This document shows, piece after piece, positions 3,047 to 30,234 of a stretch of DNA of 46,156 nt. The notes below the pieces were generated by a model. That model saw only the letters and a list, made by a program, of their open reading frames with translations. It did no database searches and was not told the origin of the DNA. The first letter of the stretch is position 1. Each line of letters opens with the position of its first letter. Both the position numbers and the translations under genes were made by a program. Origin of the DNA: a virus; IMG/VR virus record IMGVR_UViG_3300044970_000402, positions 1 through 46,156 of that record. The stretch is one strand, 5' to 3'.

Positions 3047-3973
3047 ATGCTGAACCTCGAACTCGCGCAACCCAAGCACCTCATCTCCCTGTCCACCAGC
3101 GCACATCTGGTCCACGTCCAGGTGAAGACCTGGACCGCCACGTCGCAGAACAAGGCGATCTCCCAGGAGGTCACCGCTGCCAAGAACGCGTCGTCGGACG
3201 CGGGCAGGTTCACGCAGAACCTGCTGAACAACGCGCCGCAGCACCGTGCGCTGATGAACCATCGGCAGACGGTCAATAACTGGCTTCAGCGCATCACGTA
3301 CGACTGGGCGGGAGACTGGCGGATCCTGCCTGCGTACCGCATCGAGGAGTTCGCTTGGGGCTACACCAAGATGGAGCAGGAGTACGACATGTTGAAGAAC
3401 GAGTTCTTCAACGTCTACCCGTCGCTGATCAGCGACGCTGCGTTCAAGCAGGGCGACATGTTCGACCGCACGCTGTACCCGGAGATCGAGGAGCTGATGC
3501 ATCGGTTCACGATGAAGAAGTTCATCACGGAGGTGCCGCAGTCCGACTTCCGGGCATCGATCAGCTCTGTCATTGCCGAGGACCTGAAGAACCACTACGA
3601 GTCGCAGGTCAATTCAGTCGTCCAGCAGATGATGGACGACATGAAAGGGCAGTTGGTCTCGCACGCCATGCGGCTGCGCAACTCCTGCGAGGAAGCGCAC
3701 AGCGACGAGGGCAAGAAGGTCAAGCGCAAGCGGATCTACGAGTCCACGTTCGACAACGTCCGGTCAATGGTGTCTCTGCTGGACAAGTTCAACATCACGA
3801 AGGACCCCGAGCTGGAGGACGCGCGTAGGAAGCTGGAGGCGACCCTGCAGGACATGAGCCTGGACGACCTGCGTGAGAGCGCTGCGGCCCGCGCCGAGGT
3901 GCGCGACGGCCTGGGGGACATCCTGGAGATGTTCGGCGCCCTGGGCGCTGCCACCGACGACGAGGAGGAGTGA
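3047..3973 (+). CDS. DUF3150-like protein, 308 aa (partner of MoxR/vWA)
   Basis: The start at 3047 is set by GGAGAAG about 10 bases upstream. The protein is mainly alpha-helical: an N-terminal strand motif with VHVQVKTW (residues 22-29), a helical middle (about 55-200), a basic patch KKVKRKR, and an acidic C-terminus ending DDEEE. Overall layout and its place just ahead of a MoxR-type ATPase and a vWA protein match the DUF3150 family, which occurs beside CobS/CobT-like AAA+/vWA pairs in phages and plasmids. The family's biochemical role is not known to me; a scaffold, adaptor or substrate of the AAA+/vWA machine is inference. Family assignment is by recall of its general pattern, so moderate. 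Confidence 0.65.
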   Translation: MLNLELAQPKHLISLSTSAHLVHVQVKTWTATSQNKAISQEVTAAKNASSDAGRFTQNLLNNAPQHRALMNHRQTVNNWLQRITYDWAGDWRILPAYRIEEFAWGYTKMEQEYDMLKNEFFNVYPSLISDAAFKQGDMFDRTLYPEIEELMHRFTMKKFITEVPQSDFRASISSVIAEDLKNHYESQVNSVVQQMMDDMKGQLVSHAMRLRNSCEEAHSDEGKKVKRKRIYESTFDNVRSMVSLLDKFNITKDPELEDARRKLEATLQDMSLDDLRESAAARAEVRDGLGDILEMFGALGAATDDEEE

Positions 3974-3975
3974 TC

Positions 3976-4161
3976 ATGCCGACCGAGATCAAGCTGAAGG
4001 CCGTGAACAACTACGGCCAATGGGTGTACTACCCGGACTGCGACAAGTCCAGGGTGTTCGCGCAGATTGCAGGGACGAAGACCCTGACTGCGCATGTGAT
4101 CTACCACATCAAGGCACTGGGGTATGTGGTGGACATTTCTACTGAGAGCCCACCCCTGTGA
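3976..4161 (+). CDS. Hypothetical protein, 61 aa
   Basis: Starts 3 bases after the DUF3150-like gene; a GTG at 3970 is a possible earlier start overlapping that gene's stop. The small basic alpha/beta protein (MPTEIKLKAV...) resembles many unassigned phage ORFs and shows no motif. The hairpin at 4164-4191 follows it directly and separates it from the AAA+ gene. Confidence 0.6.
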   Translation: MPTEIKLKAVNNYGQWVYYPDCDKSRVFAQIAGTKTLTAHVIYHIKALGYVVDISTESPPL

Positions 4162-4163
4162 AC

Positions 4164-4191
4164 TAGTGATCCACCACCCGGTGGGTCACTA
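4164..4191 (+). promoter_or_regulatory. Near-perfect 12-bp hairpin without T-run
   Basis: TAGTGATCCACC (4164-4175) pairs with 4180-4191 around ACCC with one G-T wobble. The next bases (TCTGTGTTTC) are not a T-run, so it is a poor intrinsic terminator. It lies about 30 bases ahead of the MoxR start and could be an RNA-processing or stability element that sets different dosage for the genes either side. Confidence 0.6.
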
Positions 4192-4221
4192 TCTGTGTTT
4201 CATCAACTGAGAGAGAAAGCC

Positions 4222-5307
4222 ATGAGCAAAGTCAACTTCCGCACGACCGTCTCCCTGGACGAGGCCAAGACCCTGATCAAGACGACGGGTCAGCACGTCA
4301 CGCACGTCATCATCTCCGAGCCCGGTGTGGGCAAGAGCAGCCTGCTGGGCATGCTGCAGGAGGAGATGGGCACCGACGAGTACGACTTCATCTACGTCGA
4401 TTGCCCTGTGAAAGACATGATGGACATCGCGGCGTCCATCCCGAACCACCACACCAAGACCCTGGAGTACTACGTGTCGTCCCTGCTCAAGGCGGGCAAC
4501 GGCAAGAAGAAGGTCATCATGCTCGACGAGCTGATGAAGGCCCCGAGGCTGATGCAGATCCTGTTCACCCGCCTGATGCTGGAGCGCACCTGGGGCGACG
4601 AGGCGCTGCCTGAGGGGTCCATCGTGTTCGCCACGTCGAACAACGCCACGGACGGTGTGGGCGACTCGATGCTCGACCACGCGGGCAATCGTGTGTGCAA
4701 GGTCTACCTGCGCAAAGCCTCCGGTGAGGAGTGGAACATGTGGGCCAGCGTCATGGTGGACGGCAAGCCGCGCGTGGCGCGTTCCATCCGAGCCTGGGCT
4801 GCGATGAATCCCCGCGCGTTCGCGTCGTACCTGGACGGTGATCAGGACGACAACCCGTACATCTTTCATCCACAGAAGGGTGGACGGCAATTCGTCTCGC
4901 TGCGCTCGCTGGCCAAGGCGTCCGTGTTCGTCGAGAGGCGGGCACAGCTCACGGACAACGCGCTGATGTGTGCCCTGTCCGGTGTGCTGGGCGAGGCCGC
5001 TGCGAAGAGTATGGCTGCGTTCATCGCGCTGGAGTCGAAGCTGATCCGTGCCACCGAGGTGCTGAAGGACCCGACCGGCGTGGATGTGCCCGACGATGTG
5101 TCGGCGCTGATCATGATGATGTTCGACGGTGTGGACGTCGTGAAGACTCAGGATGAACTTGTGGGCTTCATGCAGTTCGTCAGCCGTGTGCCGCAGGCCG
5201 AGGTGCAGAGCGTGTTCTTCACGATGATGATGCGGTCCAAGCCGCGCCTTGCCCGGTACAACGCAGCGATCCAGAAGTGGGCTGCGGACAACCACGTCCT
5301 GATGTGA
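4222..5307 (+). CDS. MoxR/CobS-type AAA+ ATPase, 361 aa
   Basis: AAA+ ATPase core: Walker A GVGKSS at residues 35-40 (lead-in SEPG), Walker B VIMLDEL at 98-104 (D102, E103), sensor-1 ATSNN at 137-141. Length and the lack of any helicase or protease domain fit MoxR/CobS-type ATPases, which act as ring-shaped chaperones together with a vWA protein. That partner lies 1.1 kb downstream (6408-7625). The start at 4222 follows GAGAGAAAG. The C-terminal helical part (about 200-361) would be the lid and partner-binding region. ATPase function is well supported; its target is unknown and may be a host complex or a phage assembly. Confidence 0.9.
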   Translation: MSKVNFRTTVSLDEAKTLIKTTGQHVTHVIISEPGVGKSSLLGMLQEEMGTDEYDFIYVDCPVKDMMDIAASIPNHHTKTLEYYVSSLLKAGNGKKKVIMLDELMKAPRLMQILFTRLMLERTWGDEALPEGSIVFATSNNATDGVGDSMLDHAGNRVCKVYLRKASGEEWNMWASVMVDGKPRVARSIRAWAAMNPRAFASYLDGDQDDNPYIFHPQKGGRQFVSLRSLAKASVFVERRAQLTDNALMCALSGVLGEAAAKSMAAFIALESKLIRATEVLKDPTGVDVPDDVSALIMMMFDGVDVVKTQDELVGFMQFVSRVPQAEVQSVFFTMMMRSKPRLARYNAAIQKWAADNHVLM

Positions 5308-5318
5308 GGAGAGGCCCC

Positions 5319-5633
5319 ATGCGAGCGAGTGACGTGAAGGAGGAGGCGTGGGGCGCGAGCCCCCACCCGATCCTGTACAAGGCGACGCCTGACTTCGAGG
5401 CGATGTACTACATGCTGGAGGCGAACGGCTGGCTCGTGCTGGAGCCGCACAGCCTGGACCACCGTCTCACTGCCAACGGTGCGATGGAGTCGAAGACCGT
5501 GAAGGACTTCAAGAATTGGATGCTCAACAACAAGCATCTGATGCTGAACACCAAGAGGCTGGGGCAGTACCGTTGGTATCTGACCATCGGTGCGCCGTAC
5601 AAGCGCAACCCAAGAAAAGGAGAGAAGGCATGA
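5319..5633 (+). CDS. Hypothetical protein, 104 aa
   Basis: The ATG at 5319 follows GAGGAGAGG closely. The protein (MRASDVKEEA...) is rich in Trp/Tyr and Lys with a probable alpha+beta fold and no known motif. It sits between the AAA+ ATPase and the NinX-like pair and overlaps the next gene by 4 bases (ATGA), so it belongs to the same operon. Function unknown. Confidence 0.65.
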   Translation: MRASDVKEEAWGASPHPILYKATPDFEAMYYMLEANGWLVLEPHSLDHRLTANGAMESKTVKDFKNWMLNNKHLMLNTKRLGQYRWYLTIGAPYKRNPRKGEKA

Positions 5634-5998
5634 AGATCAAGACAGAAGACCTCACCGGCCCCGCCCTGGACTGGGCTGTACATAAAGCCAAAGGCCGGGA
5701 CATTAAATTGCACATGTTCTGGGAGTACCGCACTCACAACAACATGTTCCACTACTCAACCGACTGGTCCCAGGGTGGGCCAATCATCGAGCGGGAGGGT
5801 ATCGAGCTGCTGTGCAACGTGACCGCCGAAGAAGCGAAGAACTTCATCGAAGGGTCTCACGCCGACTGGAGGGCAGCGAAGCGACCCATCAACCGCAACG
5901 CCCAAAGTTTCGGCCCCACGCCCCTCATCGCAGCGATGCGCTGCTATGTGGCGAGCCGACTCGGTGACGAGGTGGACATCCCGGAGGAACTGAAATGA
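5630..5998 (+). CDS. ninX: NinX-like protein (DUF2591 type), copy 1, 122 aa
   Basis: Carries the hallmark segments of the phage NinX/DUF2591 family: N-terminal LTGPALDWAV (8-17), central WSQGGPIIEREGIEL and C-terminal PTPLIAAMRCYVASRLGDEV. In lambdoid phages the family is encoded in the nin region and its biochemical function is unresolved. The gene is immediately followed by a diverged paralog whose first ten codons encode the same residues. GGAGAGAAGG supplies the ribosome site, and both ends overlap the neighbours by ATGA. Confidence 0.8.
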   Translation: MKIKTEDLTGPALDWAVHKAKGRDIKLHMFWEYRTHNNMFHYSTDWSQGGPIIEREGIELLCNVTAEEAKNFIEGSHADWRAAKRPINRNAQSFGPTPLIAAMRCYVASRLGDEVDIPEELK

Positions 5999-6411
5999 AG
6001 ATCAAGACAGAAGACCTCACCGGCCCCGCTTTGGACTGGGCGGTGGCGAAGTGTGCGGGCCTGTTGGGCTACGGCTGGAGAAAGGACAACTACGTCGCCG
6101 TGAAACTTTCAGACGGGAGATACGAACGGTTCACCCCCTCCTTCAATTGGAGCCACGGCGGTCCGATCATCGAGATCGAGGAGATCGGCATCCGTCGCAA
6201 CGCGCCCTGCTCTGATGGCAGGCAATGGGAGGCGTTCGGCAGCATCACTGCGAAGGGTGCGGGGTATCGGTGGGGCTACGGTCGCACTCCCCTCATCGCA
6301 GCGATGCGCTGCTTCGTAGCAAGCAAACTTGGGGAAGAGGTAGATATCCCAGACGATCTCTTGCCCAGAGACTACGGTTTACAAACAGAGTTCCACCGGG
6401 AGACAGCATGA
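5995..6411 (+). CDS. ninX: NinX-like protein, copy 2, 138 aa
   Basis: Tandem paralog of the preceding gene. The N-terminus MKIKTEDLTGPALDWAV is identical in both, and RTPLIAAMRCFVASKLGEEVD is nearly so. The middle differs: copy 2 has a longer insert with many aromatic residues and keeps GGPIIEIEEIGIR. Copy 2 also has a C-terminal extension of about 18 residues. Sharp conservation at both ends with divergence in the middle suggests duplication followed by specialisation of the central surface. Start and stop overlap neighbours (ATGA). Role unknown. Confidence 0.8.
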   Translation: MKIKTEDLTGPALDWAVAKCAGLLGYGWRKDNYVAVKLSDGRYERFTPSFNWSHGGPIIEIEEIGIRRNAPCSDGRQWEAFGSITAKGAGYRWGYGRTPLIAAMRCFVASKLGEEVDIPDDLLPRDYGLQTEFHRETA

Positions 6412-7625
6412 AACTTACCGCAGAACAGCGCATCATGCGCTCGCACATTCAGATGATGAAGCACCCAGAGACCGCGCTGTATTCCGGCGTGTTCATGCTG
6501 GGCACCACCGAGGTCATCGACGCAGCCGTCACTGCCTACACGGATGGTGTGAACAAGAAGTATGGGAAGACATTCCTCGAATCCCTCTCCGACATGGAGG
6601 TGAGCGGTCTCGTGCTGCACGAGAACCTGCACATCGTCTTCCGTCACCTCCTGCACAACCGTGACCTGTTCGAGGAGGACCAAGCGCTGGCGAACGCAGC
6701 GGCGGACTACGTGGTCAACGATGTGATCGTGAACCTGAAGGACAAGAACCTGTGCGACCTGCCGAAGGGTGCGCTTGTCGATGACAAGTACCACAACAAG
6801 AACATGCGTGAGGTGTATCGCCTGCTCAAGCAGGAGAAGGACCAGCGCAAGAAGCAGAGCCAAGGCCAAGGTCAAGGCCAAGGCCAGAACGGCAACGGAG
6901 CGTCCCAGGACCCCCTGGACGGCTATTCGTTCGACCAACACGACACCAAGGGACAGGCGCCGATGAACGCCGAGGAGGCCAAGGCGCTCGACACGAAGAT
7001 CGACCGGGCGCTGCGGGAGGGTGCGCTGCTGGCTGGCAGGCTCGGACACAAGATGCCCAGGGCGATCAAGGACCTGCTGGAGCCGAAGACACGGTGGCAG
7101 GACGAGCTGCGCGAGTTCATGACCTCCACGATGGTGGGCAAGGACGAGATGACGTGGAAGAAGTTCAACCGACGTCTTCTGCCCAACGACATCTACATGC
7201 CGTCCGTCGAGAACGAAGCCGTGGGTGAATTGATCTTGGCATGCGACACGTCGGGGTCGATCTCCAACGAGCAGATCACTGAGTTCGCCACGGAGATGTT
7301 GTCTATCTGTTCCACGGTGACACCGGAGTTGATCCGCGTCCTGTGGTGGGACACGTCTGTCCACTCCGAGCAGTTGTTCCGCTCAGACAAGTATCACGCC
7401 CTGGCTGAAATGCTCAAGCCAGAGGGCGGTGGAGGCACCCGAGTTGGGTGCGTTGCAGAGTACGTGAACGTGAGGAAACTCAGGCCCGAGTGTGTCATCG
7501 TGTTCACCGATGGCTACGTCGAGCCCGAAGTGAAGTGGGATCTCAATGTGCCCACGTTGTGGCTTGTGACTCGGAACAAGGGGTGGACACCCCCGACTGG
7601 GCGCAAGGTTGTGTTTGGCGACTGA
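6408..7625 (+). CDS. HExxH/vWA protein (DUF2201-type putative metallopeptidase), 405 aa
   Basis: Two-part protein. The N-terminal region has H71-E72-x-x-H75 (HENLH), the zinc signature of the putative metallopeptidase domain paired with vWA-like domains. A linker with four Gln-Gly repeats lies at about 151-160. The C-terminal region is a vWA fold with a complete MIDAS: DTSGS at 280-284, T344 after a Gly run, and TDG at 367-369. MoxR-family ATPases work with vWA proteins that bind metal through MIDAS, so this is the likely partner of the 4222-5307 ATPase. Whether it cleaves protein is inference: the HExxH is intact, but the third zinc ligand cannot be assigned. The start overlaps the NinX copy 2 stop. 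Confidence 0.85.
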   Translation: MKLTAEQRIMRSHIQMMKHPETALYSGVFMLGTTEVIDAAVTAYTDGVNKKYGKTFLESLSDMEVSGLVLHENLHIVFRHLLHNRDLFEEDQALANAAADYVVNDVIVNLKDKNLCDLPKGALVDDKYHNKNMREVYRLLKQEKDQRKKQSQGQGQGQGQNGNGASQDPLDGYSFDQHDTKGQAPMNAEEAKALDTKIDRALREGALLAGRLGHKMPRAIKDLLEPKTRWQDELREFMTSTMVGKDEMTWKKFNRRLLPNDIYMPSVENEAVGELILACDTSGSISNEQITEFATEMLSICSTVTPELIRVLWWDTSVHSEQLFRSDKYHALAEMLKPEGGGGTRVGCVAEYVNVRKLRPECVIVFTDGYVEPEVKWDLNVPTLWLVTRNKGWTPPTGRKVVFGD

Positions 7626-13878: not shown

Positions 13879-15744
13879 ATGCTGATCACCTTCGACTTCG
13901 AGACGTTCTACAGTGACGCATTCAGTCTGTCCCGTATCACAACCGAGGAATACATCCGAGATGTGCAGTTTGAAGTGATCGGTGTAGGCGTCCAAGTCGA
14001 TGGTGGTCAGCCTCAATGGTTCAGCGGTACGCGCGAGGAGACCCGCAAGTGGTTGCGTCAGTTCGACTGGAAGAACAGCATGGCGTTGGCGCACAACACC
14101 ATGTTCGACGGCGCGATCCTTCACTGGGTGTTCGGCATAACGCCGATGATTTTCCTGGACACACTGTCCATGGCGCGAGCGCTCCATGGCATGGAGGCAG
14201 GAGGATCATTGAAGGCGCTGGCTGAGCGCTATCAGATCGGCGTCAAGGGCACAGAGGTGGTAGCAGCCAAGGGCAAGACACGTATGGACTTCGCGCCAGA
14301 CGACCTTGCCCGGTATGGCGAGTACTGCAAGAACGATGTGCGCTTGACGTACGACCTGTTCCACATCATGTCGAAGAACTTCCCCATCGAAGAGCTTCGA
14401 CTCATAGACATCACCCTGCGGATGTTCACTCACCCGCAGTTGTACGCTGACGAGCCCGCGCTGCAGGACCGGCTCGACGACCTGAGGACCGAGCGGTCTC
14501 AGTTGCTGTTGTCGTTGAAAGATACGCTGCACGCAGCGAACGAAGAAGAGGTGCGCAAGAAGCTGTCCAGCAACAAGCAGTTCGCTGATGTGCTGCGCAC
14601 GTTCGACCTCGAAGTGCCGATGAAGATCAGCCCTACGACAGGCAAGGAGACGTACGCCCTGGCCAAGAAGGACGAGGGCTTCATCGCGCTGACTGAACAC
14701 GAGAACCCCGTCGTGCAGCAGCTCTGCGCTGTGCGCCTGGGGACCAAGTCCACGCTGGAGGAGAAGCGCATCGAGCGCTTCATCGAGGTCAGCAGACGCA
14801 ACCGGGGCAGTATCCCTGTCCCGTTGAAATACTACGGAGCACACACCGGGCGCTGGTCGGGCGTGGACAAGGTGAACTTCCAGAACCTGCCGAGCCGTGA
14901 CCCGAAAAAGAAGGCGCTGAAGAAGGCCATCGTCCCGCCCGAGGGCTACGTCGTCATCAACTCAGACTCCTCGCAGATCGAGGCGCGAGTGCTGGCATGG
15001 CTGGCAGGGCAGGAGGATGTGGTCCAGCAGTTCGCCAACAAGAAGGACGTGTACTCGATCTTTGCCTCATCCGTCTACGGACGGACGATCACCAAGGCCA
15101 ACGAGGCAGAGCGCTTCGTGGGGAAGACCTGCGTCCTGGGCCTGGGCTATGGCACTGGGGCGTTGAAACTCCAGCACACTCTGGCTACTTCGCAGCCGAT
15201 CAGCGTCAAGCTCGACGAAGACGAGTGCAAGCGTATCGTCAGCGTGTACCGGAGCACGAACTACAAGATCGTCGAGTTGTGGGGAGCCTCTGACTCTATG
15301 TTGTCTTCCATGCTCAACGGAAACATCAGGAACGCGATGCCGCTCGGAGAACATGGCTGTCTCTGGTTCGACGAGGACGGCATTCGCCTGCCGAACAACC
15401 TGTACATCCGCTACCCGAAGCTGCGTAGAGAGACACTCGACGGCAAATCGAAAGTTGTCTACGACTCTCGCAAGGGTCTTGTCTCTCTCTGGGGTGGGGC
15501 TGTCGTAGAGAACGTCGTGCAGGCTCTGGCGCGGATCATCGTCGGTGAGCAGATGGTCAAGATCAACGAGTTCTACCGCCCTGCCCTGACTGTTCATGAC
15601 GCTGTGGTGCTTGTCGTGCCTGAGGACGAGCAGGACGCAGCGGTCAAGTGTCTGACTGAGATCATGTCGTGCGCCCCTGACTGGGCGCCGGGGCTCCCGG
15701 TTGCCTGTGAAGCAAAGGTCGGCGCCACGTACGGCGACTGCTAA
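13879..15744 (+). CDS. Family A DNA polymerase with 3'-5' exonuclease, 621 aa
   Basis: Replicative DNA polymerase of the Pol I type. Exonuclease: DFET at 6-9 (D6, E8; ExoI), HNTMFD at 72-77 (D77; ExoII) and YCKND at 149-153 (D153; ExoIII), so proofreading should be intact. Polymerase: motif A DSSQIEAR starting at D363, motif B around RFVGKTCVLGLGYG, motif C VHDAVV with H573-D574. No 5'-3' exonuclease domain, as usual for phage replicases. ATG 13879 lies one base after the DUF3310 stop. With the primase-helicase (20334), SNF2 helicase and ssDNA-binding-like protein it forms the phage's own replisome. Confidence 0.97.
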   Translation: MLITFDFETFYSDAFSLSRITTEEYIRDVQFEVIGVGVQVDGGQPQWFSGTREETRKWLRQFDWKNSMALAHNTMFDGAILHWVFGITPMIFLDTLSMARALHGMEAGGSLKALAERYQIGVKGTEVVAAKGKTRMDFAPDDLARYGEYCKNDVRLTYDLFHIMSKNFPIEELRLIDITLRMFTHPQLYADEPALQDRLDDLRTERSQLLLSLKDTLHAANEEEVRKKLSSNKQFADVLRTFDLEVPMKISPTTGKETYALAKKDEGFIALTEHENPVVQQLCAVRLGTKSTLEEKRIERFIEVSRRNRGSIPVPLKYYGAHTGRWSGVDKVNFQNLPSRDPKKKALKKAIVPPEGYVVINSDSSQIEARVLAWLAGQEDVVQQFANKKDVYSIFASSVYGRTITKANEAERFVGKTCVLGLGYGTGALKLQHTLATSQPISVKLDEDECKRIVSVYRSTNYKIVELWGASDSMLSSMLNGNIRNAMPLGEHGCLWFDEDGIRLPNNLYIRYPKLRRETLDGKSKVVYDSRKGLVSLWGGAVVENVVQALARIIVGEQMVKINEFYRPALTVHDAVVLVVPEDEQDAAVKCLTEIMSCAPDWAPGLPVACEAKVGATYGDC

Positions 15745-23358: not shown

Positions 23359-26300
23359 TCACGGGACGGACTGACCTGCAATCGTCTCGAACCCGTACAT
23401 GATCTGGCGCTTCACGGCATTCTGCATGTTGACCGCCTGCTCGACCTTGGCCTGACGTTCAGCAGTGGACATCTTGGTGTCGGCACGCAGCATGTTGGCG
23501 TACTGACGGAGGTCCCGCAGCGTGCCGTTGACCTGCTTGTTGTAGTACTGCACAAGCGCATACTCCTCCGGGTACTGCCGCAGGTAGCGCGAGAACCCTT
23601 CGGGGTTCGTCGTCTTCAGCGAGTTGATGCGCTTCTCGATGTTCTCGATGTACTTCTCAGCTTTGCTGAACTCCCGTGCATCGACGTTGGACTTCTTGCC
23701 GACGAAGCTGCTCAGGATCAGCGCGTCACCCTTCGGGTCAAACTCTTTGTCGCCCGTCAAGGTCAACGAGAGGTTGTACCCAGAAGTGAACACCCGGAAC
23801 ACCCCGTCCAGGTAGCTGTTGGCAAAGAAATACAACGTGTTCGGGCTCCAGTCCACAGCGCCGTCTGTCTTCTTGGACAGATTGCGAGTGATGTCCTTGT
23901 ACAGCTCGGGGATGTTGTCGCCACCTGTGTAAGCGTCGCCGTACCGAGACTGCCGGTTGTTGTAGATCTCACGGCCCAACCCGTCCAGGTTCATCACGTA
24001 CTCGACGAACGGACGCGCCACGCTGGGCAGCAGCGAGTCGATGGCGAACGCGAAGAAGTTGTCTGTTGGGCTGATGCGCGAGATCGGCAGAGGCAGGAAG
24101 GAGTCCAGGCCGATGGTGGCGATGTTCGACAGCGCATCGCCTGCCGACACCCGAGACCCTGAGGCCAGCGCAGCGATCTGCGCCCCGGCTGCTGCGAACG
24201 CGCCCGGACCAAAGCCCCACGGGATCTGCACCGGGTTCTCGAACCCGGGCACGAAGATCCGAGCGTAGCGTGTCCACCGAGCCATGTCGTCGGTCAGCAG
24301 GCGGTTACGCCCTTCATCGTCATCGCCCGACAGCATCATGGCAATCATGAACATGCCGAACCCGGCGCCCGCCAGACCGGCTGACATGATCTGGCCGTTC
24401 CTGCGCTGCTCCCGCAGGCTCTTGACAATCGACGCAACCTCGGAGTCCGTGTACTTGCGGTTGCCTTTGTTGTCCTTCTGCGCCTCCAGCTCCTGCGCGA
24501 TTTTCTCGTCGTCGAACTTGATCTTGAACGCGGGGGCCAGGGCGTCGATGGCCCGCACAGCGCCGGTTGCCGCAGGACGGAAGAACATGAACAGAGCGCC
24601 CATCTCCTTGCCGTAGCGCCCAACCTGCTCAAAGTTGGCAAGGTTCTTCGTCGCCTCTACAGAGTGGACTGCAGCCGACTCCGGGTCCTCGCCACGCGCT
24701 ACGTATTCGTCCCGCATCGTACGGAACGCGCTCAGTCGAGACGCCAGCTCAAACACGTCGTTGTAGATGTCGAAGAACTTATCGACCTGATCCTTCTTCT
24801 GCATGATCTTGGATCGACCGATGTCCTTCATCAACGTGTCGAGCGCACCCTTGGCAGCGATGCCTTGCAGATAGGACACCTTGCCGCCCTTCTGCACGTA
24901 GTCCAGCATGTCCCTGTAGTACTTCTGGCTAAAGTTCAGAGTGCTGTACGGAGCATTTCCACCAGCAAGTCGATTGATGTCGGCAAGCTTACCGTTCGTG
25001 TACAGGGTCACGAACCTCCATGAGCGATACAGGCCCCCGCTGGCAACCTCCGCAGCCATGGCCTTGAGTACCCGTCCAGCCACCCCTGGACCGAGTTCTG
25101 CCCCAAGAGTGAACGCGTTCGTGAACACGTTACGGATGAAGTCCATGGGCGCGAACGCGGGGTTGTACCGCGTGTGCATCTGCCCGATGCTGCTCGTGGT
25201 CAGGTTCGCAATATCGGTCAGCGGGTTCGACGTGCGGTACGAACGCCGGATAGCCTCGCGCTCCTGCTCGTTCTTCAACTCGACAATCGTGATGGAGCCA
25301 TCGTCCTCGTAGTGGAAGATCTTGTTCTCTCCACCAAGTTTTTTCAGATCAACGTTACCAAGGAAGAGATCTTCAAACTTGATCTTGTCCGGAAGAATCT
25401 TTCCGTCAAGAATGCCTTGCGACACAGCGTTCTTGATCGCAAGGGTCAGGTCTTTGCGGCCAGCACGCATCGAGGCTTGGTGAGCTTCTGCAATCACCTG
25501 AATAACCGCGTTCTCGGCTTCGGACAGACGGCCACCAAAAGCAACCTGCCCTTCCTGCAGGTCCCCACCCAACTTCCTGGTGTTGAACTCCAGATCCTCG
25601 TCGTAGACAGTCTTACCCGGCTTGCCCTTGTACGGTACGTAGCTCTCCCACCCGTAGAGGTTCTTGATGTTCTCGGTCGGTGTGGACCAGTAGTTGGCTT
25701 CCTTGTTGAGTTCGATGGTCTTGTTGGTGAGGTCATACATCAGGCCCAGGATGCCGTCCATCCGGTCCTTGTGCGTGTCGGTGTCGAACAGACGCAGCAG
25801 GCGTTCCACTTCATCCGGCGTACGCCCAGCCCAGACCGCGTACTGTGCATTAGCCCTATCGAAGACAGAGTTCTTCAGTCCGTCAGGAGTTGCTTTGGCC
25901 TTGGCAAGTTCAAGCTGGTCGAAGAATTTCTCGTCAGACGTGAACGCGTTCAACACTTGGCGCAGGTAGGCCGCGCGACTCTCTCGCTCCTTTGCCGTAG
26001 GGGCCAGATCAGGGTTGGCAACTTCCTTCAGGATGTACTCACGCCACGCCGCAGGGCTCATCTTGAGCGGAGCACCCTTGCTGTCGTTGAAGCCAGTTAC
26101 CTTGTACTTCTGAGACGTATCGAGCGGCACCTTCTTGATGAACTTGACTTCTCGCCGTTCTGACTCGTGGCGGGCCTTGCCAACGATGTCGATGCGCGAC
26201 AACGCCTCCGACACAGAGACACCCAACTCCTCGGCAAACGCAGCAATCTGCTCGTGAAGCCGCAACTCCAGAGGCTTGACGTGCGTGTTGTCCAGATCAA

Positions 26301-29300
26301 GCGCCATACCAATGGAGCGTGTGATCTGCCCCCAGACATCATTCAAGTCTTTGCCAGTACGCTTGAGACGCCCAGCACGTTCTTCTCGCTCGAAGATTGT
26401 CTTGACAACTCGGCGTTCGTTCTGCAGGTTCGTGACAACCTTCTCGAAGTTGAGGTTCCTCAGCTTCTTCGTGCGGCTGCGATCCTTCAGAGCGAACTTC
26501 TCTAGCGTCTCGCTCTCAAATTCTTCGTCAGTCAGTTGTGACGAGGGCTTGGACCGTGGGACCCTCTGCGTAGTAGGCTTGGTAGTCTTCGCCTTGGCAG
26601 GCAGCGGTTCGAGGTCGATGCCAGCCTCCGGCACCGCCATGATCTTCTCAAATGCGTTGAAGACCTCGGCCAGCGCATCGGTCTGGTCGGGCTTCAGAAC
26701 ACCTTTCTTGTCGAAGAGACTGCTGACCGAGGGGAAGAGCCTCGCCACCGCCTTCATGAAGCTCGTCCACAAAGACTTCTCTATCGGGAGTTCGATGTAC
26801 TCCAGTCGCTTGGTGTTGACATCAGAGAGGGCACTCTGAAACGCCCTGTCAGTCATAGCGTACGAGACGAACTCGTACAGATCCTTGAATGCGTTCTCGT
26901 ACTTATCACCAAGAGACTTCTTGGCAAGCTTCATCACATCATTGAGCTGATACGCTGCATCGTATTCTTCGTCCGTTAATAATTTATCATTCGTGAGGTA
27001 TTTGTTGATCGCCTTGACGGTGACGGCGTGAACACCTTCATGCAACAGGTACGTGCCCGTCATCCCGGCGGGGGTGACTTTGATCAGATCTTGTCTTGGG
27101 TCGTACTGTGCAAGGGCGTTCTTCGGCAAGGAATCGACGACGACGATCTTGGTCTTCAGTCCTTGCCCGAGCTTCAGGATACGTTGCGCGACATGACGCA
27201 GAACAGGGTTCGTGCTCTGCGCCATGATGACGTTCAAAACGCGCTTGTAGTCCCCGCTCTCAGCAGCCTTGGTCAGTTCGCCGCGCTGTTTCTCTTCGGC
27301 TTCCTTGCGCTGTTTTTCTCGGGCCTCCCGGCGTTGCGCTTCTTGTTCTACTCTACGCAGCGCTGCCTCTTCTTCCCTGCGTTGTCGATCTGTGATCTCA
27401 AGCTGCGCCTTGGTGTAGCTAGAAGGACCAGCTTGCTGTTTCTTTGCCGCCCTCTTCTCAGCAGACTTGATGGCGGTTGCTACAGACTTGAAGGCAAGAT
27501 CCTGCTGCACCGCAGCCGTACGCGCCGCCTTGTCCCCAGGAGCATACTTCTGCAACATGTCTATGAACAGGTTGCGCAGCGCTTCGGACAAGTTGTTCCA
27601 CGTAGGCAGTTTGACTTGTTCGAGTTTCTCGTACTGTCTCCGGTTCAGCTCATAGATGCGAGCCTCAGGAGCAGCCAAAGTCTGGGTACGGTTCGTGCCC
27701 TGCGCTTCTGAGACACGGTCCAGATACGTCCGCAACTGCCGTCGTGCAATTGCGCGTTGCTCCGGTGTGTTCTCCGTCATGCTTGCAAGGTAGACGTCCT
27801 TGCCATCACGCCTCAGTTCTTCCCACTTCGGAATTTCAGCGCGTTTGAACCGGAGATTTTCCAACGCAGCGTAGATGTCCTTAGCGACTTTTTGGGTGGC
27901 AGCTTCTCTTTCCTCAGCGGGAGAAGAGTTATCAATCTCGTCAGGAAGTACAAAGTCTCCAGGATCAAGACCGTTGGCACGAAGCGTCTGTTCAAGTCTG
28001 CGTGAGCCCAACGGCTGACTGTCAGGCAGTTTTCCTTCTTCGGTAGCAGCAGATAGGGCGGCAGTGTTCTCGTCCTCAAAACTGGACAGTAACCGTTCCT
28101 TGTCGTACCACTGTCCGATCACGCCTTCCTGTTCGTTGATCTCGTTCTTGATCTTCTTGAACCAAGCCTTTTCTTCCGGTGTCTTTCCTTCCGGCTTTTT
28201 GTCCGCAGCAGCTTTGGCTTCTGCAGACGGCTCAGGGAATTGCTGGGAAAATTTCAAAATTTTCTCGATTGCCTTAACAGCAATCCTTACTCTCTCCTGG
28301 TAGTTTTCAAATTCCTCGTCAGCGCGCTGGACAACACCATACTTTTTTCCAATCGCTTGAATCTTGGTCCGCTTCGCAAGCTGTTCTTCGGAAAGAGCTG
28401 CTGGACCAACAGCAAAATGCACGTCATCGTCATCACTGCGACTACCAATAAGAGCATCGAGTTCTTCTGCGTCTTCGATAGCCGTCGAACGGGTAGGCTT
28501 GGTAGCCTTGGTGGGCTTTGTAGTTTCTGCAGCAGGAGTCTCAGCAACAGTAGTCTTGACGGCGGCGGTCTCAACCGGAGGCTTTGCAGTTACAACAGGC
28601 TCAGCCGTTTTGCGCAGTGGGCTAGACGCAGGAAGCGTGTTGACATCGAAATCCCCAAGCTCATCAAGCGCGTTTGCTGCGGCCAAAGAAGAACGTTCTT
28701 CTTCCTCGTCTTCAGTCAGCTCCCGAGTTTCTCTGGCTTTGTCGAGTTCATTGAGGCGGAGTTCTCGTGGATCAGCAGCCGTCTCAGCAGTGGGAGTCTT
28801 GACAGCGGGCGTTTCGGCAGTGGGAGTCTTGACAGCGGGCGTTTCGGCAGGAGGAGTACCAAGCGCTTTCGCCAGCTCGCTCTTCTTGGACTCGATCAGC
28901 TTCTCCGTATCGACGAACTTCTTCTGCCGATTGGCAATCTTGGTCTTGTTGTCGCCAGCAGCGATGTTCTTTTCGAGTTCGATCTTCCGCGCGGCGTTCT
29001 CCGTCTCAAGGGCGGCGATCTCTTTCTTCAGGCGCTCGGTCAGTGCAGCGGGCTGTTCTCCTTCTCCTGCAGGAGGTTTTGCAGAAGGCGTTCCAGCAGC
29101 ATCCACTCCAGGGGGTTTAGCTGCTGCAGCTCCGGAGGTATCTGGACCTTCAGGGGTGATTGCAGAAATGTCAACGCCCGCTCCAGTTGGAGGAGGCTGA
29201 GTTCTTGTACCACTTGGTGCTCCTTGTGTGGCTGTTGGGCGCGGCGGCACGGGAGGCGCGACAGGGCGCGGACCAGCTCCCCCGCCCGTCACGGCGCCTA

Positions 29301-30234
29301 GGCCAAGACCGGCCAACCCTTCAAGCGTGCCTGCGCCCACAGCGCCCCGGTACGTCGGGGTATCAAACCCTTCGCGCTGCAGCGCGATGTTCTGTGCAAC
29401 TTGCTCCTGGAAGGCTTGCCCGAATTCAGGCAGAGCTTCGGTCACACCCGCCTCAGCACGACGCCGGATAGCGCCCTTGGCAGCTTTCTCAGAAATCGAC
29501 TCGGCGGCTTCCTTGGTCGCCGCGTTCTTCTGGATCGTTCGCGCGAGTAGTGCTGCAGCGCCCTTCTCCAACGGACCTGCAGCGGCAGCACCGCCCAGCA
29601 CTACGCCGAGTAGGATCTGATCCAGGTTCTTACCGTTGGTACGTTGCGCAATTTCCGCGCGACGCTCGGCTTCCTCAGGAGCAGCCCCAGCTTCGATAAG
29701 TGCGTCCTTGGTGGCTTCGTAGATGGACCCCTTCACGGTGCCCGCACCCATGACGCCGCCAGTCAGAACTGACGCACCAGTAGCAACCAGCGCCCCCGCA
29801 CCGAGGATCTTGACCCCCAGAGCAGCAAGAATCGACGGGACTGCAGTGCCGAACGCACTGGTCAGCATGTCAACAGGCGCAACAGAAAACGCCTGGAATG
29901 CCGCCTTGACTTGGTCCGTCGCCCCAGCGTCCTCAGCCTTCTTCATGATCCTGGCGATCTCTGCCTGATCATTCTTGGCCTGTGCGGACATCAGGTCAGC
30001 GACGTACTCCTCAGCACCCCGAAGCGCTTTGGACGTGTCAGACCCAGCACCGAACGCGTCCGCAATCATGCGGACACCTGAGACAGCGCCCTTGACGAAC
30101 CCTACAGGGACGTCAGCAACCTGACGGAATACGCTCTGCCGTTCAGGCGTAGGGAATTGATCAACCAGTCGGAACCCGGGAGGGACATTGACCGGCTCTG
30201 ATCCGACAAGAGTGAATCCAGGTGGAAGTGCCAT
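23359..30234 (-). CDS. Giant polyvalent virion/ejection protein, 2291 aa
   Basis: Largest gene. N-terminus: hydrophobic Gly/Ala-rich segments (about 115-170, 210-230), then Pro/Thr/Ala-rich linkers with exact repeats (about 470-490) and charged coiled coils (about 400-460, 870-1010). At 1065-1069 HEGVH forms an HExxH in YLLHEGVHAV, typical of a metallopeptidase-like domain in large polyvalent phage proteins. A helical C-terminal half follows, with a hydrophobic helix near 1950-1970. Such giant proteins at the end of the structural operon are usually packaged in the head and ejected with the DNA, comparable in role to T7 gp14-16; this is inference. No lysozyme motif is seen. No clear ribosome site precedes the ATG (A-rich leader). 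Confidence 0.85.
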   Translation of the reverse strand: MALPPGFTLVGSEPVNVPPGFRLVDQFPTPERQSVFRQVADVPVGFVKGAVSGVRMIADAFGAGSDTSKALRGAEEYVADLMSAQAKNDQAEIARIMKKAEDAGATDQVKAAFQAFSVAPVDMLTSAFGTAVPSILAALGVKILGAGALVATGASVLTGGVMGAGTVKGSIYEATKDALIEAGAAPEEAERRAEIAQRTNGKNLDQILLGVVLGGAAAAGPLEKGAAALLARTIQKNAATKEAAESISEKAAKGAIRRRAEAGVTEALPEFGQAFQEQVAQNIALQREGFDTPTYRGAVGAGTLEGLAGLGLGAVTGGGAGPRPVAPPVPPRPTATQGAPSGTRTQPPPTGAGVDISAITPEGPDTSGAAAAKPPGVDAAGTPSAKPPAGEGEQPAALTERLKKEIAALETENAARKIELEKNIAAGDNKTKIANRQKKFVDTEKLIESKKSELAKALGTPPAETPAVKTPTAETPAVKTPTAETAADPRELRLNELDKARETRELTEDEEEERSSLAAANALDELGDFDVNTLPASSPLRKTAEPVVTAKPPVETAAVKTTVAETPAAETTKPTKATKPTRSTAIEDAEELDALIGSRSDDDDVHFAVGPAALSEEQLAKRTKIQAIGKKYGVVQRADEEFENYQERVRIAVKAIEKILKFSQQFPEPSAEAKAAADKKPEGKTPEEKAWFKKIKNEINEQEGVIGQWYDKERLLSSFEDENTAALSAATEEGKLPDSQPLGSRRLEQTLRANGLDPGDFVLPDEIDNSSPAEEREAATQKVAKDIYAALENLRFKRAEIPKWEELRRDGKDVYLASMTENTPEQRAIARRQLRTYLDRVSEAQGTNRTQTLAAPEARIYELNRRQYEKLEQVKLPTWNNLSEALRNLFIDMLQKYAPGDKAARTAAVQQDLAFKSVATAIKSAEKRAAKKQQAGPSSYTKAQLEITDRQRREEEAALRRVEQEAQRREAREKQRKEAEEKQRGELTKAAESGDYKRVLNVIMAQSTNPVLRHVAQRILKLGQGLKTKIVVVDSLPKNALAQYDPRQDLIKVTPAGMTGTYLLHEGVHAVTVKAINKYLTNDKLLTDEEYDAAYQLNDVMKLAKKSLGDKYENAFKDLYEFVSYAMTDRAFQSALSDVNTKRLEYIELPIEKSLWTSFMKAVARLFPSVSSLFDKKGVLKPDQTDALAEVFNAFEKIMAVPEAGIDLEPLPAKAKTTKPTTQRVPRSKPSSQLTDEEFESETLEKFALKDRSRTKKLRNLNFEKVVTNLQNERRVVKTIFEREERAGRLKRTGKDLNDVWGQITRSIGMALDLDNTHVKPLELRLHEQIAAFAEELGVSVSEALSRIDIVGKARHESERREVKFIKKVPLDTSQKYKVTGFNDSKGAPLKMSPAAWREYILKEVANPDLAPTAKERESRAAYLRQVLNAFTSDEKFFDQLELAKAKATPDGLKNSVFDRANAQYAVWAGRTPDEVERLLRLFDTDTHKDRMDGILGLMYDLTNKTIELNKEANYWSTPTENIKNLYGWESYVPYKGKPGKTVYDEDLEFNTRKLGGDLQEGQVAFGGRLSEAENAVIQVIAEAHQASMRAGRKDLTLAIKNAVSQGILDGKILPDKIKFEDLFLGNVDLKKLGGENKIFHYEDDGSITIVELKNEQEREAIRRSYRTSNPLTDIANLTTSSIGQMHTRYNPAFAPMDFIRNVFTNAFTLGAELGPGVAGRVLKAMAAEVASGGLYRSWRFVTLYTNGKLADINRLAGGNAPYSTLNFSQKYYRDMLDYVQKGGKVSYLQGIAAKGALDTLMKDIGRSKIMQKKDQVDKFFDIYNDVFELASRLSAFRTMRDEYVARGEDPESAAVHSVEATKNLANFEQVGRYGKEMGALFMFFRPAATGAVRAIDALAPAFKIKFDDEKIAQELEAQKDNKGNRKYTDSEVASIVKSLREQRRNGQIMSAGLAGAGFGMFMIAMMLSGDDDEGRNRLLTDDMARWTRYARIFVPGFENPVQIPWGFGPGAFAAAGAQIAALASGSRVSAGDALSNIATIGLDSFLPLPISRISPTDNFFAFAIDSLLPSVARPFVEYVMNLDGLGREIYNNRQSRYGDAYTGGDNIPELYKDITRNLSKKTDGAVDWSPNTLYFFANSYLDGVFRVFTSGYNLSLTLTGDKEFDPKGDALILSSFVGKKSNVDAREFSKAEKYIENIEKRINSLKTTNPEGFSRYLRQYPEEYALVQYYNKQVNGTLRDLRQYANMLRADTKMSTAERQAKVEQAVNMQNAVKRQIMYGFETIAGQSVP
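28787..28846. repeat. Two perfect 30-bp tandem repeats inside the giant gene
   Basis: 28787-28816 and 28817-28846 are identical. On the minus strand they encode two copies of a 10-residue Pro/Thr/Val unit (AETPAVKTPT). Perfect identity suggests recent slippage in a flexible linker. Confidence 0.95.

Follow-up and report, generated by a model that had tools for sequence, protein, structure and literature searches.

A DUF3150-like protein linked to an N4 gp24/gp25-type ATPase-vWA pair in uncultured phages and plasmids: a putative MoxR-vWA remodelling machine

Three linked genes in an uncultured phage

The IMG/VR virus record IMGVR_UViG_3300044970_000402, analysed here over all of its 46,156 bases (the window), carries within positions 3047-7625 genes for a DUF3150-like protein, an AAA+ ATPase, and a protein that joins an HExxH motif to a vWA domain. 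An initial annotation made from the sequence alone had proposed that these genes form a MoxR-vWA kind of machine in the early arm of a phage, with two NinX-like genes inside the set. The position was judged correctly, as early and replication genes occupy the plus strand over ~1-23 kb. The three genes, all intact and referred to below as the triad, are as follows.

3047-3973, plus strand: DUF3150-like third component, 308 aa (PF11348 match weak alone; homolog matches, model, triad synteny)
4222-5307, plus strand: MoxR/midasin-type AAA+ ATPase, 361 aa, homolog of N4 gp24 (phrog_1297, midasin match, conserved motifs)
6408-7625, plus strand: HExxH (DUF2201_N) and vWA MIDAS (DUF2201) protein, 405 aa, homolog of N4 gp25

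The ATPase is intact, as the initial annotation had held. It matches phrog_1297 "ATPase" (3.4e-40), its Walker B motif reads VIMLDE, its sensor 1 residue is N140, and its Walker A motif is SEPGVGKS, in which the first Gly of GxxGxGKS is replaced by Ser. Over 222 homologs, K38 and N140 are conserved at 100% and D102 at 99%. The AAA_5 domain was matched by 8 of 11 ATPase homologs at E ≤ 0.001 and by the window protein only at 0.029, and the best match of the family profile among solved sequences was midasin (1.5e-30). With its Walker A, Walker B and sensor 1 motifs and an AAA_5-type domain, the protein belongs with the MoxR/AAA_5 ATPases. The record of the ATPase homolog from phage PA5oct, EST35_0335 (locus L007, 1-1102), carries the note "ESI-MS/MS", so this homolog may be virion-associated.

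The combination of HExxH and a complete vWA MIDAS in one protein was likewise confirmed. The window protein matched DUF2201_N at 3.2e-23 (83.1 bits, cut-off 23.2) and DUF2201 at 4.8e-18 (65.9 bits, cut-off 26.4), and because PF13203 and PF09967 were both matched above cut-off, we assign it to the DUF2201 metallopeptidase-like/vWA proteins. The HExxH motif is HENLH (residues 71-75), and the MIDAS follows the DxSxS...T...D pattern in full (D280-S282-S284-T344-D368). Over 228 homologs, H71, E72 and H75 are conserved at 97-98%, D100 at 98%, and the MIDAS residues at 98-100%; with the HExxH, MIDAS, Walker and sensor residues at 97-100%, the active sites of both proteins appear to have been kept. 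A structural model of the protein (predicted local distance difference test, pLDDT, 88.2) places D100, a candidate third metal ligand, on the helix following HExxH. The best PDB fold match of this model was the MIDAS domain of human MDN1 (1.4e-4). The MoxR-vWA assignment of the initial annotation stands. The window protein belongs to phrog_1314 by its match, and a tblastn search with it returned 750 phage records. We rejected the PHROG label of this family, "HNH endonuclease", because the protein is an HExxH and vWA protein. The same label is found on NC_008720 gp25 and on many RefSeq phage records, and it appears to be a wrong name that spread through PHROGs and RefSeq.

The DUF3150-like identity of the first protein was upheld chiefly through its homologs. 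Searched alone against PF11348, it scored E = 0.003 and 17.3 bits (cut-off 24.9); 28 of 64 aligned homologs matched at E ≤ 0.01, the best at 5.1e-12. Its AlphaFold model (pLDDT 92.3; predicted template modelling score, pTM, 0.62) is mostly alpha-helical with short strands. The structure comparison that the initial annotation had suggested matched this model to a viral protein annotated DUF3150 (E = 1e-16), besides the MDN1 match of the vWA model; it yielded no solved PDB structure for the DUF3150-like protein at E ≤ 0.001, and the modelled fold appears to be new.

The triad is linked across phages, plasmids and genomes

Loci were collected by degenerate-pattern searches built from alignment subsets; patterns built from the window proteins alone gave no matches. 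We took 80 viral loci by DUF3150 alone (229 confirmed in all) and 79 new viral loci by vWA alone. All three genes lay on one strand in 74 of the 80 loci found by DUF3150. The same arrangement was present in 71 of the 79 loci found by vWA, which are those most similar to the window vWA protein, such that this rate holds for that clade rather than for all vWA phages. In two of the viral exceptions (L014 and L024) the DUF3150 gene sits at a contig end. Among genome loci, 55 of 77 had all three genes on one strand. The full triad was present in 207 fetched loci, 94 of them below 75% and 27 below 50% vWA identity, a recurrence that argues against chance and strongly bears out the co-occurrence in other phages that the initial annotation had asked to be surveyed.

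We built a DUF3150 profile from the window protein, a cyanophage protein and five plasmid proteins. It recovered homologs at very low E-values, one per locus apart from broken genes. The PF11348 profile matched nothing in reference phages or controls, and a profile from triad homologs was used in its place for the reference phages. A tblastn search with the window DUF3150-like protein found only three cultured phage records, each of 65 kb; the one that we examined has the ATPase, DUF3150 and vWA genes in one gene block. Plasmid records with a DUF3150 homolog numbered 36, mainly from Burkholderiaceae, a group in which the triad is linked in genomes as well. All five plasmids examined carry the triad on one strand, with the genes adjacent in four and spread over ~7 kb in Simplicispira.

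The linkage has persisted through rearrangement. Three arrangements of the triad genes are seen across the 27 lineages with <50% vWA identity. In a 100-row vWA tree, at least eight changes of order label are needed, compared to a minimum of four forced by five labels, although these counts are approximate, as this was a quick tree with some long branches. The window falls within a well supported clade with the order DUF3150-ATPase-vWA. Across 53 non-redundant viral loci, DUF3150 distances correlated with those of the ATPase (0.73) and the vWA protein (0.76), and with those of DNA polymerase at 0.51. Given polymerase, the partial correlations were 0.62 for DUF3150-ATPase and 0.66 for DUF3150-vWA, and none of 500 permutations was as high for DUF3150-vWA. 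On these comparisons, the linkage of the triad appears to be more than inheritance.

The most divergent cellular DUF3150 proteins (from Planctomycetes, delta-proteobacteria and others) lie downstream of a different AAA protein (PF00004) and have no vWA gene. A PF00004 AAA gene adjoins DUF3150 in 15 of the 19 loci that lacked an ATPase or vWA match (L231-L249), and in the remaining four the sequence retrieved begins with DUF3150 or shortly before it. DUF3150 thus recurs with AAA motors, here in a second association besides that with the triad ATPase. The one PF00004 AAA protein from these loci that was tested matched the PADLOC IetA profiles at 6.8e-15.

Relation to known ATPase-vWA systems

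The ATPase-vWA pair is not new, as by sequence it is homologous to gp24 and gp25 of phage N4: the window proteins match phrog_1297 and phrog_1314 and align with the N4 proteins. The N4 genes (Schitoviridae core) are neighbours in the same order as in the window, ahead of helicase and polymerase genes, and N4 gp25-type proteins have HExxH and MIDAS in common with the window vWA protein. The N4 genome differs in having no DUF3150, and the window differs from N4-like phages in its virion genes, as far as searched. The gp24 and gp25 genes have been described as core genes of N4-like phages with no function given (PMC4193335, PMC7650795) and as middle-gene transcripts in N4 (PMC4193335). The initial annotation, which knew of no described role for such a set in phage, missed that the pair itself was already on record.

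The plasmid operons of Burkholderiaceae (for example those of Cupriavidus pRK1-1 and of pBVIE02) contain the same three families in one operon, with DUF3150 proteins 22-29% identical to that of the window. They differ in their order, ATPase-DUF3150-vWA, and in having PRTRC or type IV secretion genes nearby rather than DNA polymerase. Two loci from Cupriavidus and Burkholderia plasmids (L009 and L012) have a PRTRC ThiF-family or UBA/ThiF-type gene within a few kb of the triad; the plasmid triad and the PRTRC/ThiF genes perhaps make up one larger maintenance cassette.

Midasin (Rea1/MDN1) is the closest solved relative of the AAA domain by sequence and of the vWA/MIDAS domain by fold. It is one huge chain with six AAA modules. 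To our knowledge, neither midasin nor the pairs NorQ-NorD, CbbQ-CbbO and RavA-ViaA possess an HExxH domain or a DUF3150 partner. These pairs resemble that of the window in consisting of a MoxR-type ATPase and a vWA partner (PMC13036017, PMC3893208). The NorQD pair acts in a finger-in-pore manner, and a similar insertion has been noted for midasin (PMC13036017). Midasin acts in ribosome assembly (PMC8837202). We regard the window set as a variant MoxR-vWA system, distinguished by its conserved third component.

A proposed remodelling machine and its alternatives

From gene content, conservation, linkage, co-evolution and predicted folds, we think it probable that the three genes encode one ATP-driven, midasin-like (MoxR-vWA) machine for protein remodelling, in which DUF3150 would be an adaptor and the vWA protein would contribute a metallopeptidase-like arm; complex formation, mechanism and peptidase activity are what we infer. 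The ATPase would be the ring motor. By analogy with NorQD and midasin (PMC13036017), the vWA protein may dock on this ring with a part inserted in the pore, to be held and turned by it, and its MIDAS metal site would grip the target or the adaptor. The HExxH domain at the N terminus of the vWA protein is probably a zinc peptidase, for which D100 is a putative third ligand, and would cleave or bind the engaged client. DUF3150, in which conserved positions include no evident catalytic residues, fits the role of a dedicated adaptor or scaffold that would couple the motor to its substrate.

The surroundings of the triad bear on what this substrate may be. The commonest neighbours across 160 viral loci include genes for a DUF3310 protein (107), DNA polymerase I (101, lying ~6 kb downstream of the triad), an Hjc-like nuclease (91) and a Cas4-like exonuclease (57), and these polymerase and nuclease genes indicate an early/replication setting. 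Expressed from this block, the set would most likely dismantle or mature a protein complex during takeover or replication. Since plasmid triads have PRTRC or type IV secretion genes as neighbours instead, the substrate would probably not be a phage structure but something shared by incoming DNA elements or by the host. The persistence of the triad in many uncultured phages and conjugative plasmids points to a shared job. More speculatively, and with clearly less confidence, the triad may be a distinct three-part machine, with DUF3150 as its substrate adaptor, that conjugative plasmids and a large group of mostly uncultured phages use as a standard takeover tool; it would then dismantle a nucleoprotein or defence complex of the host soon after entry.

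Alternatively, the triad may be a conflict system carried by mobile elements for defence or superinfection exclusion. Its carriers are phages and conjugative plasmids, one ATPase homolog matches PF20030 bpMoxR (7.7e-4), and MoxR-vWA ternary conflict systems, which also have three components including MoxR and vWA, do exist (PMC7159879). In those systems, however, the third component is VMAP, iSTAND or FtsH, and the vWA protein carries variable effectors (PMC7159879); here, the third component is DUF3150-like, and the vWA protein of the window ends with its vWA domain, with no variable C-terminal effector. PADLOC profiles did not match DUF3150 or vWA and matched the ATPase only marginally, the core is highly conserved, and in phages the triad occupies a conserved early/replication position rather than that of variable cargo. 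We therefore regard this explanation as unlikely.

Several observations weigh against the machine that we favour, some of which would suit a DUF3150 that is just an operon neighbour, sharing a phage process with the ATPase-vWA pair but working apart from it. The whole records of N4, EcP1, nACB1, phage G and PA5oct contain the ATPase but no recognisable DUF3150, so that outside the triad loci, in N4-like and jumbo phages, the pair can do without it. No gene fusions were found among triad members. As for the peptidase arm, the fold search with the vWA protein matched the vWA part alone, with no match assignable to the zincin part; Pfam describes DUF2201_N as putative, and we know of no zinc binding or peptidase activity for it. 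That DUF3150 is a bystander seems to us less probable still than a conflict role, since its linkage was kept through three gene orders across phages and plasmids, its distances co-vary with those of its partners beyond the polymerase control, and its divergent relatives also adjoin an AAA ATPase.

An HExxH domain is, to our general knowledge, not a feature of CobT or NorD. This, the absence of CobS_N and CobT Pfam domains among window matches at E ≤ 1, and the lack of a recurring metalloenzyme among the neighbour clusters examined, several of which are DNA polymerase and nucleases, leave as the most doubtful of the alternatives a chelatase-like or cofactor-loading machine on the pattern of CobST and NorQD, which would supply an enzyme of the phage or the host with its metal or cofactor, even with metal insertion among the known MoxR-vWA roles (NorQD, PMC13036017) and a weak match of the vWA protein to VWA_CoxE (1.9e-4).

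The proposed remodelling machine would give a context to N4 gp24 and gp25, which have had core-gene status in an entire phage family but no function. With a third protein linked to the pair, peptidase-like and MIDAS sites that are intact, and conservation across uncultured phages as well as conjugative plasmids, the triad becomes a machine that can be tested. DUF3150, a family with no mention in the literature that we searched and whose link to the ATPase-vWA pair appears undescribed, gains a likely role.

Inserted genes and genome setting

The remaining features of the locus are listed below.

3976-4161, plus strand: small open reading frame (ORF), ~61 aa, between the DUF3150-like gene and the ATPase gene (ORF list, sequence)
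4164-4191, plus strand: perfect 12-bp inverted repeat, terminator- or operator-like, just upstream of the ATPase gene (pattern scan, in which the count of terminator-like sites was not clearly above shuffles)
5319-5633, plus strand: small ORF, 104 aa, part of the inserted cargo (weak phrog_21328 match, 0.0028)
5630-5998, plus strand: NinX-like paralog 1 (PF10765, 5e-19)
5995-6411, plus strand: NinX-like paralog 2 (PF10765, 2.3e-16)

The two NinX-like genes lie between the ATPase and vWA genes, as the initial annotation had placed them, and encode paralogs 43% identical to each other. Their membership in the machine was rejected: the ATPase-vWA gap, 912 nt in the window, has a median of 65 nt in the 66 relatives that share its gene order, and only two further loci have NinX in this position. 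From these comparisons, we take them to be passengers of a local insertion. Overlaps of a few bases join each gene in the gap (the small ORF and both NinX-like genes) to the following one, an arrangement that suggests translation as one operon.

The early/replication arm of the window also encodes DNA polymerase I (13879-15744), a Cas4-like exonuclease, a helicase and a primase-helicase. Relatives have a large terminase gene on the minus strand, ~8 kb upstream of the triad (54 loci). The window genes that were scanned include no such gene, and we therefore think that the record is probably a fragment. Neither a DUF3150 nor an ATPase homolog was found in DSL-LC04, the nearest phage as judged from one virion protein. 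Virion genes are on the minus strand from 23.4 kb onward, and a minus-strand ORF of 2291 aa (23359-30234), without a PHROG match, adjoins them.

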